Shown here: positions 14,127 to 55,500 of the stretch, in pieces
How the letters are laid out: each line of letters starts with the position of its first letter
Numbering within the stretch: position 1 is the first letter of the stretch
DNA from: Streptomyces lincolnensis
GTDB taxonomy: Bacteria; Actinomycetota; Actinomycetes; Streptomycetales; Streptomycetaceae
DNA: 64,000 bases
Direction of reading: 5' to 3'
NCBI RefSeq assembly: GCF_001685355.1
Contig: NZ_CP016438.1
Location: 7,626,001-7,690,000 of the forward strand
Notes under the pieces: generated by a model
The model's input: the letters and a program-made list of their open reading frames with translations, nothing else
Told to the model about the DNA's origin: nothing
Database searches by the model: none
Position numbers and translations under genes: made by a program

Positions 14127-15656
14127 TCAGATGTCCCGGAAGATCTCGATCTGCGCCCCCACCGAGTTCAGCCGCTCCGCCAGATCCTCGTACCCCCGGT
14201 TGATGACGTACACGTTCCGCAGCACGGACGTGCCCTCGGCCGCCATCATCGCGAGCAGGACGACCACGGCGGGGCGCAGGGCGGGCGGGCACATCATCTC
14301 GGCGGCGCGCCAGCGGGTCGGGCCCTCGACCAGCACGCGGTGCGGGTCGAGCAACTGCAACCGCCCGCCCAGCCGGTTCAGGTCGGTCAGGTAGATGGCC
14401 CGGTTGTCGTAGACCCAGTCGTGGATGAGGGTCTTGCCGGAGGCGACGGCGGCGATGGCCGCGAAGAAGGGGACGTTGTCGATGTTCAGGCCGGGGAACG
14501 GCATGGGGTGGATCTTGTCGATCGGCGCCTCCAGCTTGGAGGGCCGGACGGTGAGGTCCACCAGGCGGGTGCGGCCGTTGTCGGCGAAGTACTCGGGCGT
14601 ACGGTCGTGGTCGAGGCCCATCTCCTCCAGGACCGCCAGCTCGATCTCCAGGAACTCGATGGGCACCCGGCGGACCGTCAGCTCCGACTCGGTGACGACG
14701 GCCGCGGCCAGCAGGCTCATCGCCTCTACCGGGTCCTCGGAGGGGGAGTAGTCCACGTCGGCGTCGATGTCCGGCACGCCGTGCACGGTGAGCGTGGTGG
14801 TGCCGATGCCCTCGACCCTCACGCCGAGCGCCTCCAGGAAGAAGCACAGGTCCTGCACCATGTAGTTGGAGGAGGCGTTGCGGATGACGGTGACACCGTC
14901 GTGCCGGGCGGCGGCCAGCAGCGCGTTCTCGGTGACCGTGTCCCCGCGCTCGGTCAGGACGATCGGGCGGTCCGGGCGGACGGAGCGGTCGACGACGGCG
15001 TGGTACTGCCCCTCCGTCGCGGCGATGTCCAGCCCGAACCGGCGCAGCGCGATCATGTGCGGCTCGATGGTCCGGGTCCCGAGGTCGCAGCCACCGGCGT
15101 AGGGCAGCTTGAAGCGGTCCATGTCGTGCAGCAGCGGACCGAGGAACATGATGATCGAGCGGGTGCGGACGGCGGCCTCGGCGTCGATCGTCGCCATGTT
15201 CAGCTCGGCCGGCGGCACGATCTCCAGGTCGACGCCCTCGTTGATCCAGCGGGTGCGCACGCCGATGGAGTTCAGCACCTCCAGAAGGCGGTAGACCTCC
15301 TCGATCCGGGCGACCCGGCGCAGCACCGTGCGCCCCCGGTTGAGCAGGGAGGCGCACAGCAGCGCCACGCACGCGTTCTTGCTCGTCTTGACGTCGATCG
15401 CGCCGGAGAGCCGACGACCGCCGACCACACGCAGGTGCATCGGGCCCGCGTAGCCCAGCGAGACGATTTCGCTGTCCAGCGCTTCGCCGATGCGAGCGAT
15501 CATCTCAAGGCTGATGTTCTGGTTGCCGCGCTCGATGCGATTGACGGCGCTCTGGCTGGTGCCGAGCGCCTCGGCGAGCTGGGTCTGTGTCCAGCCCCGG
15601 TGCTGCCGGGCGTCACGGATGAGCTTGCCGATGCGTACGAGGTAGTCGTCTGCCAT
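14127..15656 (-). CDS. murA2: HTH-XRE / MurA-like enolpyruvyl transferase fusion
   Basis: A 509-aa protein. Residues ~1-68 are a Cro/C1-type helix-turn-helix (GWTQTQLAEALGTSQSAVNRIERG). The rest is a UDP-N-acetylglucosamine 1-carboxyvinyltransferase (EPSP-synthase fold). The catalytic Lys-Asn pair is in TSKNACVALL and the PEP-binding Cys is at residue 190, in AGGCDLGTRTIEPH. The enzyme would transfer enolpyruvate from PEP to UDP-GlcNAc, the first committed step of peptidoglycan synthesis. Streptomyces carries such a second MurA next to aconitase (SCO5998 in S. coelicolor, from memory). A perfect palindrome just upstream of the start (15669-15684) may be its own operator. No clear Shine-Dalgarno sequence precedes the ATG, so the mRNA may be leaderless. 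Confidence 0.92.
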   Translation of the reverse strand: MADDYLVRIGKLIRDARQHRGWTQTQLAEALGTSQSAVNRIERGNQNISLEMIARIGEALDSEIVSLGYAGPMHLRVVGGRRLSGAIDVKTSKNACVALLCASLLNRGRTVLRRVARIEEVYRLLEVLNSIGVRTRWINEGVDLEIVPPAELNMATIDAEAAVRTRSIIMFLGPLLHDMDRFKLPYAGGCDLGTRTIEPHMIALRRFGLDIAATEGQYHAVVDRSVRPDRPIVLTERGDTVTENALLAAARHDGVTVIRNASSNYMVQDLCFFLEALGVRVEGIGTTTLTVHGVPDIDADVDYSPSEDPVEAMSLLAAAVVTESELTVRRVPIEFLEIELAVLEEMGLDHDRTPEYFADNGRTRLVDLTVRPSKLEAPIDKIHPMPFPGLNIDNVPFFAAIAAVASGKTLIHDWVYDNRAIYLTDLNRLGGRLQLLDPHRVLVEGPTRWRAAEMMCPPALRPAVVVLLAMMAAEGTSVLRNVYVINRGYEDLAERLNSVGAQIEIFRDI

Positions 15657-17503: not shown

Positions 17504-20287
<2,784 letters not shown>

Positions 20288-20342: not shown

Positions 20343-20454
20343 CGCCGTGTCCGCAGGGGCGGGGGAGACGGATGTTCCCCGTATCCGCGCAGGTCATCGC
20401 CAGGCCTCAGGCGGAACACAGGCGTCCCTCAGGCGGCCGGGACACGATCGGTGC

Positions 20455-21153
20455 ATGACCGCCACCGAGGGGTTCCGACAGCGCCACGCGCGCGTGCCCG
20501 CCACGGACGACGGGCCGACGCCCCCGGCCCGCGGCCGTATCCCGCACGCCGTCGCGCCCCGCCCCCGGCGGAAGGGCCCCCGGCCGTCCGTCCGGATGCC
20601 GGGACGGACGCCGACGGTCCGCACCGTGCAGCGCCACGCGCGCGTGCCCGCCGCGGACGACGGGCCGACGGCCACCGAGGTGGTGTCGGTCGCCGTGACC
20701 GGAGCGGGCCGCAGGTCCGGTCCGGCCGTCGACGGGCACACCGACGGACACGCCGCGCCGCCCCCGGCCCGCGGCCACCTCCCGCACGCCGTCGCGCCCC
20801 GCCCCCGGCGGAAGGGCCCCCGGCCGCCCGTCCTGATGCCGGGACGGATGCCGACGGTCCGCACCGTGCAGCGCCACGCGCGAGTGCCCGCCGCGGACGA
20901 CGGGCCGACGGCCACCGAGGTGGTGTCGGTCGCCGTGACCGGAGCGGGCCGCAGGTCCGGTCCGGCCGTCGACGGGCACACCGACGGACACGCCGCGCCG
21001 CCCCCGGCCCGCGGCCACCTCCCGCACGCCATCGCGCCCCGCCCCCGGCGGAAGGGCCCCCGGCCGTCCGTCCTGATGCCGGGACGGATGCCGACGGTCC
21101 GCACCGTGCGCGGTCCCGGCCACGCCATCAGGCCGACGGAGGCAGCGAGATGA
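20455..21153 (+). pseudogene. Collapsed and tandemly duplicated OmpR-type response regulator
   Basis: An open frame of 232 codons that no longer encodes a functional regulator. Its N-terminus (MTATEGFRQ) and the segment DDGPTATEVVSVAVTGAG look like the start of a receiver domain (VDDEPT-TEVVSVA). The C-terminus PTVRTVRGPGHAIRPTEAAR looks like the TVRGVGY... end of an OmpR winged helix. Nearly everything between, including the phospho-acceptor Asp region (PHAV is followed by APRPRRK), is missing. The shortened unit of 80 codons is present 2.6 times in tandem. The stop still overlaps the kinase ATG (ATGA), as in an intact regulator-kinase operon. The resemblance is my reading, with no alignment run; the repeat itself is certain. 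Confidence 0.7.
20479..21108 (+). repeat. 240-bp direct tandem repeat, 2.6 copies
   Basis: Each unit begins CAGCGCCACGCG and ends GCACCGTG. Copies span 20479-20628 (150 bp, missing an internal 90 bp), 20629-20868 (240 bp) and 20869-21108 (240 bp). The two full copies differ at about three positions, so the duplication is recent. Both unit length and deletion are multiples of three, preserving the reading frame into the kinase start. Confidence 0.95.
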
Positions 21154-22706
21154 GCACCGACCAGGCCGACGGAGGCCGCGCGACGAGCGCCGTCCCGCGC
21201 CGCCGACAAACCCTCCGCGCCCGGTCCCTGCACACCCGCCTGCTCCTCCTCGTAGGCATCACCCTCCTCGTCGTGTGCTCGGCCACGGCCGGCACCACCG
21301 CCTTCGTCCAGCGCGCCTATCTGATGGGCCACCTCGACGACCGCGTCACCCAGGCCGTCGACCGCGGCGCGGGAGAGGCGGGCCGCCATCCGGACGAGGA
21401 GGACGACCTGTCCTTCTTCACCGGGAACGGCCACCCGGCCGGCATGATCGCCGCCCGGCTCGACACCGACGGCGGCATCCTCGCCGCGGCGGTCGTCGGC
21501 CAGGACACCCCGCCCCGGTCCCTCACCACCGCCCAGAGCGCCGCCCTGGCGGGTATCGCCACCGACGGCTCCCGGCACACCCGGACCGTCCCCGGCCTCG
21601 GCACCTACCGGGTCGCCGCGGTCGACAGCGACGGGTCCCGCGTCCTGGCCGGGTTGCCGATGGACGACGTCCAGCACCTGATCAGCACCCTGGTGGCGGT
21701 CGAGGCGGCCGTCGCCGGTGCCGGGCTCGCCCTCGCGTGCTGTGTCTGCGCCGTGGTCGTACGACGGCAACTGCGGCCCCTGGGCCGGGTCACCGCCACC
21801 GCGGCCGAGGTCACCCGCGCCCCGCCGCTCCGGGGCGAGGCCACCGGCCTCACCCGGGTCCCCGAGCGCGACACGGTCCCCGGCAGCGAGGCGGGGCAGA
21901 TCGGCGCCGCCCTCAACCGCCTGATCGACCAGGTCGAGTCCTCGCACGCCGAACGCCGGCGCGGCGAGGAACGCATGCGCCGCTTCCTGGCCGACGCCAG
22001 CCATGAACTGCGTACGCCTCTCACGTCCATCGCCGGATACGCGGAACTGATGACCCGAAGCCAGGTGAGTACCGGCCGCGTCGAACCGGCACTCGCCTGG
22101 CGCCGGGTCCTGGCCGAGTCGGCGCGCATGACCGGGCTGGTCGAGGACCTGCTCCTGCTGGCCCGGCTCGACGAGGGCCGGCCGCTCCACCGCGCCGAGG
22201 TCGACCTGGCGGCGCTGGTCGCGGAGGCGGTGTGGGAGGCGCGGGCCGCGGGCGACGGCCGTCACTGGCAGCTCGACCTGCGCCTCGACGCCCCCGCGTC
22301 GGTCGTCGGCGACGCGGACCGGCTCCACCAGGTGGTGGCCGGCCTGCTGGCCAACGCGCGTACGCACACCCCGGCCGGCACGACGGTGACGGCGACCGTC
22401 GAGGCCACCGGCACCCGCTGTGTCGTCCGGGTCCGCGACGACGGCCCCGGCATCCCGCAGGCTCTCCTGCCCACCGTCTTCGAACGCTTCACCCGCGCCG
22501 ACACCTCCCGCTCCCGCGCCGACGCCACGTCCGGCGGCACCGGCCTCGGCCTCGCCGTCGCCGCGGCGATCACCGCGGCCCACGGCGGCCGTATCGACGT
22601 CTCCAGCGTCCCCGGCCGCACCGAGTTCACCGTCGCGCTGCCGCCGGCCGGCGGGACGGCGGAGCCGGAGCGGCCGGCGCGGCGGACGAGCCCCGCGCGG
22701 GTGTGA
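21150..22706 (+). CDS. Membrane sensor histidine kinase
   Basis: A 518-aa two-component kinase. A transmembrane helix at residues ~31-52 is followed by an extracytoplasmic sensor of ~110 residues, a second helix (~175-200, LISTLVAVEAAVAGAG...), a HAMP linker, and HisKA with the phospho-acceptor His at residue 285 (DASHELRTPL). The ATPase boxes are N (LLANARTH), G1 (DDGPGIP), F (FERFTRAD) and G2 (GGTGLGLAV). All catalytic elements are present, yet its upstream partner regulator is a degenerate repeat, so the kinase is effectively orphaned. It may cross-talk or be decaying. The start overlaps the remnant's stop. Confidence 0.92.
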   Translation: MSTDQADGGRATSAVPRRRQTLRARSLHTRLLLLVGITLLVVCSATAGTTAFVQRAYLMGHLDDRVTQAVDRGAGEAGRHPDEEDDLSFFTGNGHPAGMIAARLDTDGGILAAAVVGQDTPPRSLTTAQSAALAGIATDGSRHTRTVPGLGTYRVAAVDSDGSRVLAGLPMDDVQHLISTLVAVEAAVAGAGLALACCVCAVVVRRQLRPLGRVTATAAEVTRAPPLRGEATGLTRVPERDTVPGSEAGQIGAALNRLIDQVESSHAERRRGEERMRRFLADASHELRTPLTSIAGYAELMTRSQVSTGRVEPALAWRRVLAESARMTGLVEDLLLLARLDEGRPLHRAEVDLAALVAEAVWEARAAGDGRHWQLDLRLDAPASVVGDADRLHQVVAGLLANARTHTPAGTTVTATVEATGTRCVVRVRDDGPGIPQALLPTVFERFTRADTSRSRADATSGGTGLGLAVAAAITAAHGGRIDVSSVPGRTEFTVALPPAGGTAEPERPARRTSPARV

Positions 22707-54889: not shown

Positions 54890-55500
54890 CGAGCCGCCCG
54901 GTCCGGTTCGGTGACGCAGTCCCCAGGACGGTCCCGCCATCTACGCCCCTCCGGCTGCCCTGGTACGGCGGTGCCGTGGGGAGGACTTCATCGTCCGTGC
55001 CTCCGGTGCCGGTTGGCGCACACGCGGGGCCCGTCGGAAGGGTCTGGCTGTTGGCGCCCCGTCCCGGCCGCCCCTGTACGGCGGTGCCGTCCGGAGGGCT
55101 CAACCCTCCGGGTCGGCTCCGCTGCCCCCACGGGGCGGGAGCCCGCCAGGAGTGCCCACCGCCCACGCCCCGGGCCCGGTCGCCCCCATTCGGCGGAGCC
55201 TGCCAGGACGGCCTCGCCGTTGGCATCTCGCTCCGGCTGCCCTCATGCCGAGGAGGTCCCCGGGCGGTCCCGACTTCAGCGCCCCGCTCCGGTTGCCCTC
55301 ATGCGCCGGAGGCCGTCGGGACGGTCTGATAGCCGGCGCCCCGCTCCGCTCGCTCCCCATGCGCCGGAGGCCATCAGGACTGTCTGACCGTTGGCACCGC
55401 GCACCGGTCGCCCTCGTGCGTCGGTGCCCGCCAGGAGCGTCTCACCGCCCCGTCCACGCCGCCCCCACGCCGTACAGCCCCTCAGGTCGGTCTCACCGTC
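54890..55500. repeat. Degenerate tandem repeat array, ~57-bp period, 10-11 units
   Basis: The 725-bp space between two convergent genes is filled by diverged units aligned on CTCCGG(C/T)TGCCCTCATGCG followed by CCGGAGGCC and a (C)AGGACGGTCT-like tail. Anchors (end of TGCCC or its variant) fall near 54960, 55017, 55073, 55127, 55184, 55242, 55298, 55356, 55413 and 55464, steps of 51-58 bp. A further unit is likely at ~54904. The best-matched units are at 55280-55400. No frame stays open across the array on either strand with conserved content, so it is probably non-coding. The last unit runs ~19 bp into the 3' end of the NYN-like gene. Confidence 0.75.

Follow-up and report, generated by a model that had tools for sequence, protein, structure and literature searches.

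Collapse and tandem re-expansion of a response-regulator gene ahead of a retained sensor kinase in Streptomyces lincolnensis

Translationally coupled leader cistrons are short upstream open reading frames (ORFs) whose stop codon overlaps the start of the next gene. The loss or rewiring of paired signalling genes is usually inferred from end states. For Streptomyces coelicolor, a review on two-component systems states that orphan kinases and regulators lacking genomic partners may still have functional ones, and a title cited there reports the identification of the cognate regulator of the orphan kinase OhkA (PMC9739842). Here we analyzed a 64,000-nucleotide stretch of Streptomyces lincolnensis DNA (the window; contig NZ_CP016438.1, positions 7,626,001 to 7,690,000) from a genome consisting of a single contig of 10,319,054 bases, in which an intact sensor kinase gene follows a degenerate, internally repeated regulator gene. 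The features of the locus, in window coordinates, are:

17522..20287, + strand: aconitase-like ORF (acnA), the upstream syntenic anchor, from the ORF list; the true start may lie downstream of 17522
20406..20432, + strand: operator-like direct repeats CTCAGG-N5-CACAGG-N5-CTCAG with an 11-bp pitch, from conserved columns across loci
20443..20448, + strand: CACGAT, a -10-like hexamer six bases ahead of the ATG, from sequence and conserved columns
20455..21153, + strand: degenerate, tandemly expanded response-regulator gene of 232 codons plus stop, without a Pfam match
20479..20628, + strand: partial first unit of 150 bp (the unit minus 90 bp)
20629..20868, + strand: first full 240-bp unit
20869..21108, + strand: second full 240-bp unit, with 3 differences from the first
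21109..21153, + strand: regulator C-terminal tail and the stop that overlaps the kinase start, from alignment to the L030 and L092 regulators
21138..21142, + strand: GGAGG, a Shine-Dalgarno-like sequence inside the last regulator codons
21150..22706, + strand: intact sensor histidine kinase of 518 aa with HisKA and HATPase_c domains, catalytic motifs kept

Tandem Repeats Finder describes an array at 20519-21109 with a period of 240, 2.5 copies and 97% matches; its score is 1126, and the runner-up among the 14 repeat rows of the window scores 178. This result and the register of the copies confirm the 150 + 240 + 240 bp structure proposed earlier from the sequence alone (the original prediction), together with the preserved frame and the ATGA in which the TGA of the ORF overlaps the kinase ATG at 21150. 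The full units, predicted to differ at about 3 of 240 bases, do so at exactly three sites (20643, 20791 and 20827). Codon changes are non-synonymous in 6/6 cases between the partial and the first full unit, and in 2/3 between the two full units. G+C by codon position is 0.81/0.70/0.93 in the ORF and 0.78/0.58/0.94 in the kinase; this resemblance favors the 20455 frame over the other open frames on both strands, and the minus-strand and kinase-frame ORFs across the array were set aside on the same grounds. A whole-genome DNA search, in which 40 of 307 first-look candidates were scored, found no second substantial copy, the other match covering 33 bases at 88%. As far as this search sees, the array is single-copy in the genome. 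A 33-bp tandem repeat (21129-21192, 1.9 copies, 87% matches) spans the Shine-Dalgarno-like sequence and start codon of the kinase, with ACG in place of ATG in its second copy. Elsewhere in the window, a second tandem array lies at 55279-55424 (period 58, 2.5 copies, 78% matches), and the minus-strand ORF 14127-15656 (509 aa) presumably joins, judged by eye, a helix-turn-helix regulator-like start to a MurA-type enolpyruvyl transferase-like part.

In orthologous acnA-linked operons a 241-aa OmpR-type regulator, not an unrelated gene, occupies exactly this place, behind the same promoter and with the same kinase overlap. Alignment to these regulators bears out the regulator-like start and TVRG..HAIRP end recognized previously. 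Judged by its shared place, promoter, start, end and overlap, ORF 20455-21153 is a descendant of an OmpR/PhoB response regulator. Aligned with the L030 regulator, the one-unit form of the remnant (102 codons) displays a 12-bp insertion, a 42-bp deletion that takes the VVLDGMLPDLDG segment, identified by this alignment as the phospho-acceptor segment, and a 387-bp deletion that takes the remaining receiver and nearly all of the DNA-binding domain, of which the TVRG..HAIRP end alone survives. Two 240-bp duplications, with 90 bp removed from one copy, account for the rest of the present ORF; every indel that separates the window remnant from the intact relative has a length divisible by three. 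Neither a receiver domain with the phospho-acceptor aspartate nor a C-terminal winged-helix DNA-binding domain is present in the remnant. The predicted loss of both the phospho-acceptor and the DNA-binding region is thus upheld, but the single large deletion invoked for it resolves into the two deletions and the insertion; the subsequent duplication also stands, refined in that the first copy is a full unit shortened in frame.

The sole database match to the repeat ORF is a 152-aa protein that equals the window ORF minus exactly 80 residues and also holds one partial and one full unit; it forms a cluster of 5 sequences on 2 contigs, the longest of 9,862,049 bases. As this form is exactly one 80-aa unit shorter, copy number differs between assemblies, a variation the original prediction had suggested looking for. 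The nearest row to the window in a kinase tree, L055 from S. lincolnensis L4, carries an unexpanded 41-codon remnant; an arrangement similar to the 33-bp repeat over the kinase start is visible there too. Remnant DNA as a query against 61 related genomes returned almost only short GC-rich matches, and paired matches in G011 pointed to an intact regulator; the approach was set aside.

Regulator loss recurs well beyond the window, which the window sequence alone does not reveal. We gathered 137 loci (30 genome-search matches, the best 80 of 410 related loci and 27 further stretches) that collapse to 113 distinct kinases, many with an acnA homologue just upstream. Classified from sequence, 72 of these have an intact regulator, 29 a remnant (window included), 10 a fused gene and 2 an out-of-frame one, so that an intact regulator is missing at 41/113. 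The window genome's own paralogue (L189) is counted among the 113 and the 72 and was excluded from motif and DHp counts; the window locus (L023), intact-like by length, was placed among the remnants; L096, L099, L109, L113, L124 and L179 were counted as intact by hand, L179 on its regulator match. Remnants other than that of the window measure 20 to 152 codons. In all 29, stop and kinase start share a single base (ATGA in 28, GTGA at L102), an overlap also seen in 61 of the 65 intact loci with an automatically found start. In the fused class, the kinase reading frame opens with the start codon and first codons of the regulator (e.g., L117, L121 and L084). The out-of-frame loci are L101 and L108. 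At L101, from a draft genome, the regulator has its full length and a single frameshift, which may be a sequencing error. Small repeats are found in other remnants as well: the 100-codon remnant of L122 ends in three short in-frame RPAEHVV repeats, an independent small expansion, and the L074 and L177 leaders contain short in-frame repeats too.

On the kinase tree, 18 changes between intact and non-intact states are needed, 15 of them forced by starred branches; this quick tree cannot by itself separate loss from gain, and the changes are read as losses because remnants are present. The window falls within a clade of 12 rows (support 86), none of which has an intact regulator. Conversely, 295 genomes yielded 31 regulator matches scoring over 350 bits; 30 of these lie beside a listed kinase by coordinate check, and at the single strong match without an intact kinase beside it (G286:C1:10138495) the kinase is eroded. 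With 41/113 kinases lacking an intact regulator versus 1/31 regulators lacking an intact kinase, the order of loss looks one-sided, regulator first. Three genomes (G009, G091 and G170) keep promoter and acnA with an eroding kinase. Frame is kept in one of four eroding-kinase loci, L221 being an in-frame chimera, L222 truncated, and L223 and L228 frameshifted. At L221 (G009:C1:7480500-7484500) a 130-codon in-frame chimera of kinase start and end stands behind the conserved promoter. At L223 (G170:C44:34800-38800, reverse strand) the HisKA segment of the eroding kinase is tandemly duplicated with frameshifts around it, another tandem duplication in the same decaying operon.

The window kinase, predicted to be intact, matches HisKA and HATPase_c and keeps its catalytic motifs; it stands, as an orphan histidine kinase does, without an intact cognate regulator beside it. 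The phospho-acceptor histidine, the asparagine, and the G1 and G2 glycine motifs are retained in 41/41 regulator-less kinases. Omega (GY+F3X4) over the whole kinase ranges from 0.108 to 0.165 in five regulator-less sets and from 0.038 to 0.106 in nine intact sets, all hand-chosen from the tree and two of the five overlapping; from the DHp domain on, the ranges are 0.107-0.155 and 0.030-0.088, and the median is about 2-3 fold higher in regulator-less sets. Where an intact and a regulator-less row are sisters on the kinase tree, the regulator-less tip is the longer one in 5/5 pairs. Agreement with the intact consensus is 0.931 in regulator-less versus 0.945 in intact kinases for the DHp domain, 0.791 versus 0.820 for the ATPase domain, and 0.676 versus 0.732 for the sensor domain. 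These comparisons indicate that regulator-less kinases are under purifying selection that is relaxed, and least relaxed where the regulator would dock. NG86, which ignores codon bias, was used for pairwise contrasts alone: the common 52-codon remnant of L093 and L094 yields dN 0.121 and dS 0.059, compared with 0.043 and 0.088 for their kinases.

Promoter and operator information content is alike in 53 intact, 29 remnant and 10 fused loci. The loci compared deviate from the start consensus at no more than 6 positions (53/72, 29/29 and 10/10, respectively); the 2 out-of-frame loci are not among them. In the window genome the operator pattern has one exact match (20406..20432) and one match with 3 mismatches. 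Within this genome, the top regulator match at E <= 1e-75 is a paralogue of 62% identity, located with its own kinase at 4.956 Mb. CTCAGG-N5-CACAG precedes the gene of this paralogue, as it does 4/6 such paralogues from other genomes, the best-scoring ones fetched; on account of these common boxes the paralogous regulator is the first candidate reader of the old operator. We looked for a shift of regulator-less DHp domains toward paralogue residues and saw none: at +10 and +16 relative to the histidine, A and M are retained in the window against R and T in the paralogue, and regulator-less kinases match the intact consensus there in 0.95 and 0.98 of cases. Promoter-motif matches without the kinase (G263, G011 contig 24, G176 and G314) had no match to kinase, regulator or acnA and were discarded. 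A literature search for a name of the operator found nothing on point.

Frame is kept at 39/41 regulator-less loci (29 remnants and 10 fused), which favors, of the two options raised in the original prediction, preservation for the sake of the kinase. How much of this mutation alone would produce was gauged on pairs of direct repeats at least 60 bases apart in intact regulator genes. The in-frame share of these pairs is 0.335, 0.393 and 0.437 when 1, 2 and 3 bases match exactly, and rises to 0.558 with 4-base and 0.782 with 8-base words. By this control, an expectation of one in three is too low and too favorable to a role of the remnant as leader, and was rejected. Eleven remnant-versus-intact comparisons of 16 tried contain 17 distinct deletions of at least 60 bp, 15 of which are multiples of three; the exceptions, 365 bp (L166) and 109 bp (L074), are each offset by small indels nearby, and junctions mostly share 0-4 bases of homology, apart from one with 7 and one with 9. 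Among the poorer alignments left out of this count, L122 and L173 each display one large loss, of 450 and 615 bp respectively, both divisible by three, and in L086, L107 and L114 the aligner splits the loss into pieces, several of them not multiples of three. Binomial tails, treating events as independent, are 4.5e-6, 2.1e-4, 5.2e-3 and 0.056 for 15/17 at p = 1/3, 0.44, 0.56 and 0.68, and 3.1e-5, 8.5e-4, 0.013 and 0.096 for the 13/15 forced events at the same values. Set against the direct-repeat expectation, these tails make selection on frame in regulator remnants likely, not proven, and deletion bias in GC-rich DNA explains frame conservation in part. The contrast with the kinase erosions helps, because no gene behind an eroding kinase needs protection, but is small.

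We propose, at a probability of roughly 0.6, that the dead OmpR-family regulator gene is retained as a translated leader through which expression of the kinase is maintained. Transcription would begin at or next to the old regulator ATG, the 20455 ATG in the window, giving a leaderless mRNA. Ribosomes would load at this start, traverse the remaining in-frame residue, stop at the TGA overlapping the kinase ATG and restart there, aided by the GGAGG in the last regulator codons; the kinase would thus be translationally coupled to the remnant ORF, requiring its first codons, its last codons and its frame, with the regulator middle dispensable. In the window strain, in-frame deletions would have removed this middle, leaving a remnant of about 102 codons later enlarged by 80-codon tandem duplications. 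Being 240 bp long and so divisible by three, such duplications may be tolerated in a stretch whose residues have ceased to matter, as the predominance of non-synonymous changes among the units suggests. The kinase itself may now work with another regulator, for which the conserved operator and the conserved docking domain are indirect hints. The proposal draws on the intact 241-aa regulator of the orthologues, the one-base overlap in every remnant, at least 15 state changes, the catalytic motifs and purifying omega of the kinases, an operator equally conserved with and without the regulator, the dN/dS contrast between the L093/L094 remnant and its kinases, and the kinase erosions, which keep frame in only 1/4.

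Decay of the operon is the serious and main rival. Under it, the entire two-component operon is being lost, the regulator first and the kinase later, the remnant and its repeats do nothing, and frame survives chiefly through the tendency of codon-periodic GC-rich DNA to lose stretches divisible by three. We hold this account to be rather unlikely, but several observations speak for it: direct-repeat pairs are in frame in 0.34-0.78 of cases, leaving frame conservation partly expected from mutation (tail 0.056 at p = 0.68), regulator-less kinases evolve under the roughly 2-3 fold higher median omega and the longer tips described above, and three genomes retain promoter and acnA with an eroding kinase. 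The losses split into non-multiples of three at L086, L107 and L114 and the broken frames of L101 and L108 also count against a leader role, and coupling need not be required, as the kinase has a Shine-Dalgarno-like sequence of its own (a GGAG, GAGG, AGGA or GGGA word within 20 bases upstream) at 27/29 remnant loci. Mere decay, however, fits poorly with catalytic motifs kept in all 41 kinases, DHp agreement of 0.931 versus 0.945, an operator conserved after regulator loss, and exact one-base overlaps in 29/29 remnants although most measured junctions share only 0-4 bases.

The other two accounts concern the array itself. The option, raised in the original prediction, that the expanded remnant is a new functional repeat protein found little support and appears extremely improbable: the long open ORF has a coding-like codon-position pattern, its length of 232 is near the 241 of the lost regulator and its copy number varies, but the codon changes between units are largely amino acid replacements, no Pfam family is matched, the database yields nothing but a shorter version of this ORF, and the sister locus L055 is unexpanded. 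A misassembly that inflated the copy number of a truly shorter array in the window is likewise improbable. The 152-aa form, with one unit fewer, indeed lies on a contig of at most 9,862,049 bases, other than the 10,319,054-base chromosome; yet the second full unit, differing from the first at 3 sites, is not a plain copy of it, and the shorter form holds a partial and a full unit, so that a tandem repeat exists either way.

Building on the leader proposal, a broader scheme may be put forward tentatively, as a possibility we would not favor at even odds: such operons would come apart regulator-first by a selected route, in which the regulator is whittled down to the translational need of the kinase or the kinase captures the leaderless start, the kinase keeps its docking domain, and a paralogous regulator uses the old operator via CTCAGG-N5-CACAG boxes. 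One genus would then hold at least 15 replicates at many stages, the window strain having re-expanded its leader by tandem repeats. One operon displays side by side the intact pair, remnants from 152 down to 20 codons, capture of the start codon by the kinase, and erosion of the kinase itself, and so amounts to a natural experiment on the breakup of two-gene signalling systems. Such a series opens several questions to test: is it worse to have a regulator without its kinase than a kinase without its regulator, do kinases switch to a paralogous regulator, and what share do selection and GC-rich deletion bias each have in the frame conservation of dying genes? Our literature search, with subscription papers mostly outside its reach, found no account of regulators repeatedly collapsing in front of a kinase that is kept.

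Among known arrangements, the intact acnA-linked OmpR-type operon (e.g., L077/L032 of S. pseudovenezuelae GGS1; L030) resembles the window locus in place, operator, -10-like element, regulator start and end, and overlap, whereas in the window the phospho-acceptor segment is gone, hardly any of the DNA-binding domain is left, and the remnant is tandemly expanded. With Streptomyces orphan kinases such as OhkA of S. coelicolor, the window kinase shares conserved catalytic motifs and the lack of an intact regulator gene beside it; the window operon still keeps the remnant of the lost regulator in frame, and the loss recurs in many relatives. As in translationally coupled leader cistrons, the stop of the window ORF overlaps the start of the following gene, but this ORF, whose coupling to the kinase is proposed here, derives from a degenerated regulator and has been expanded by tandem repeats.
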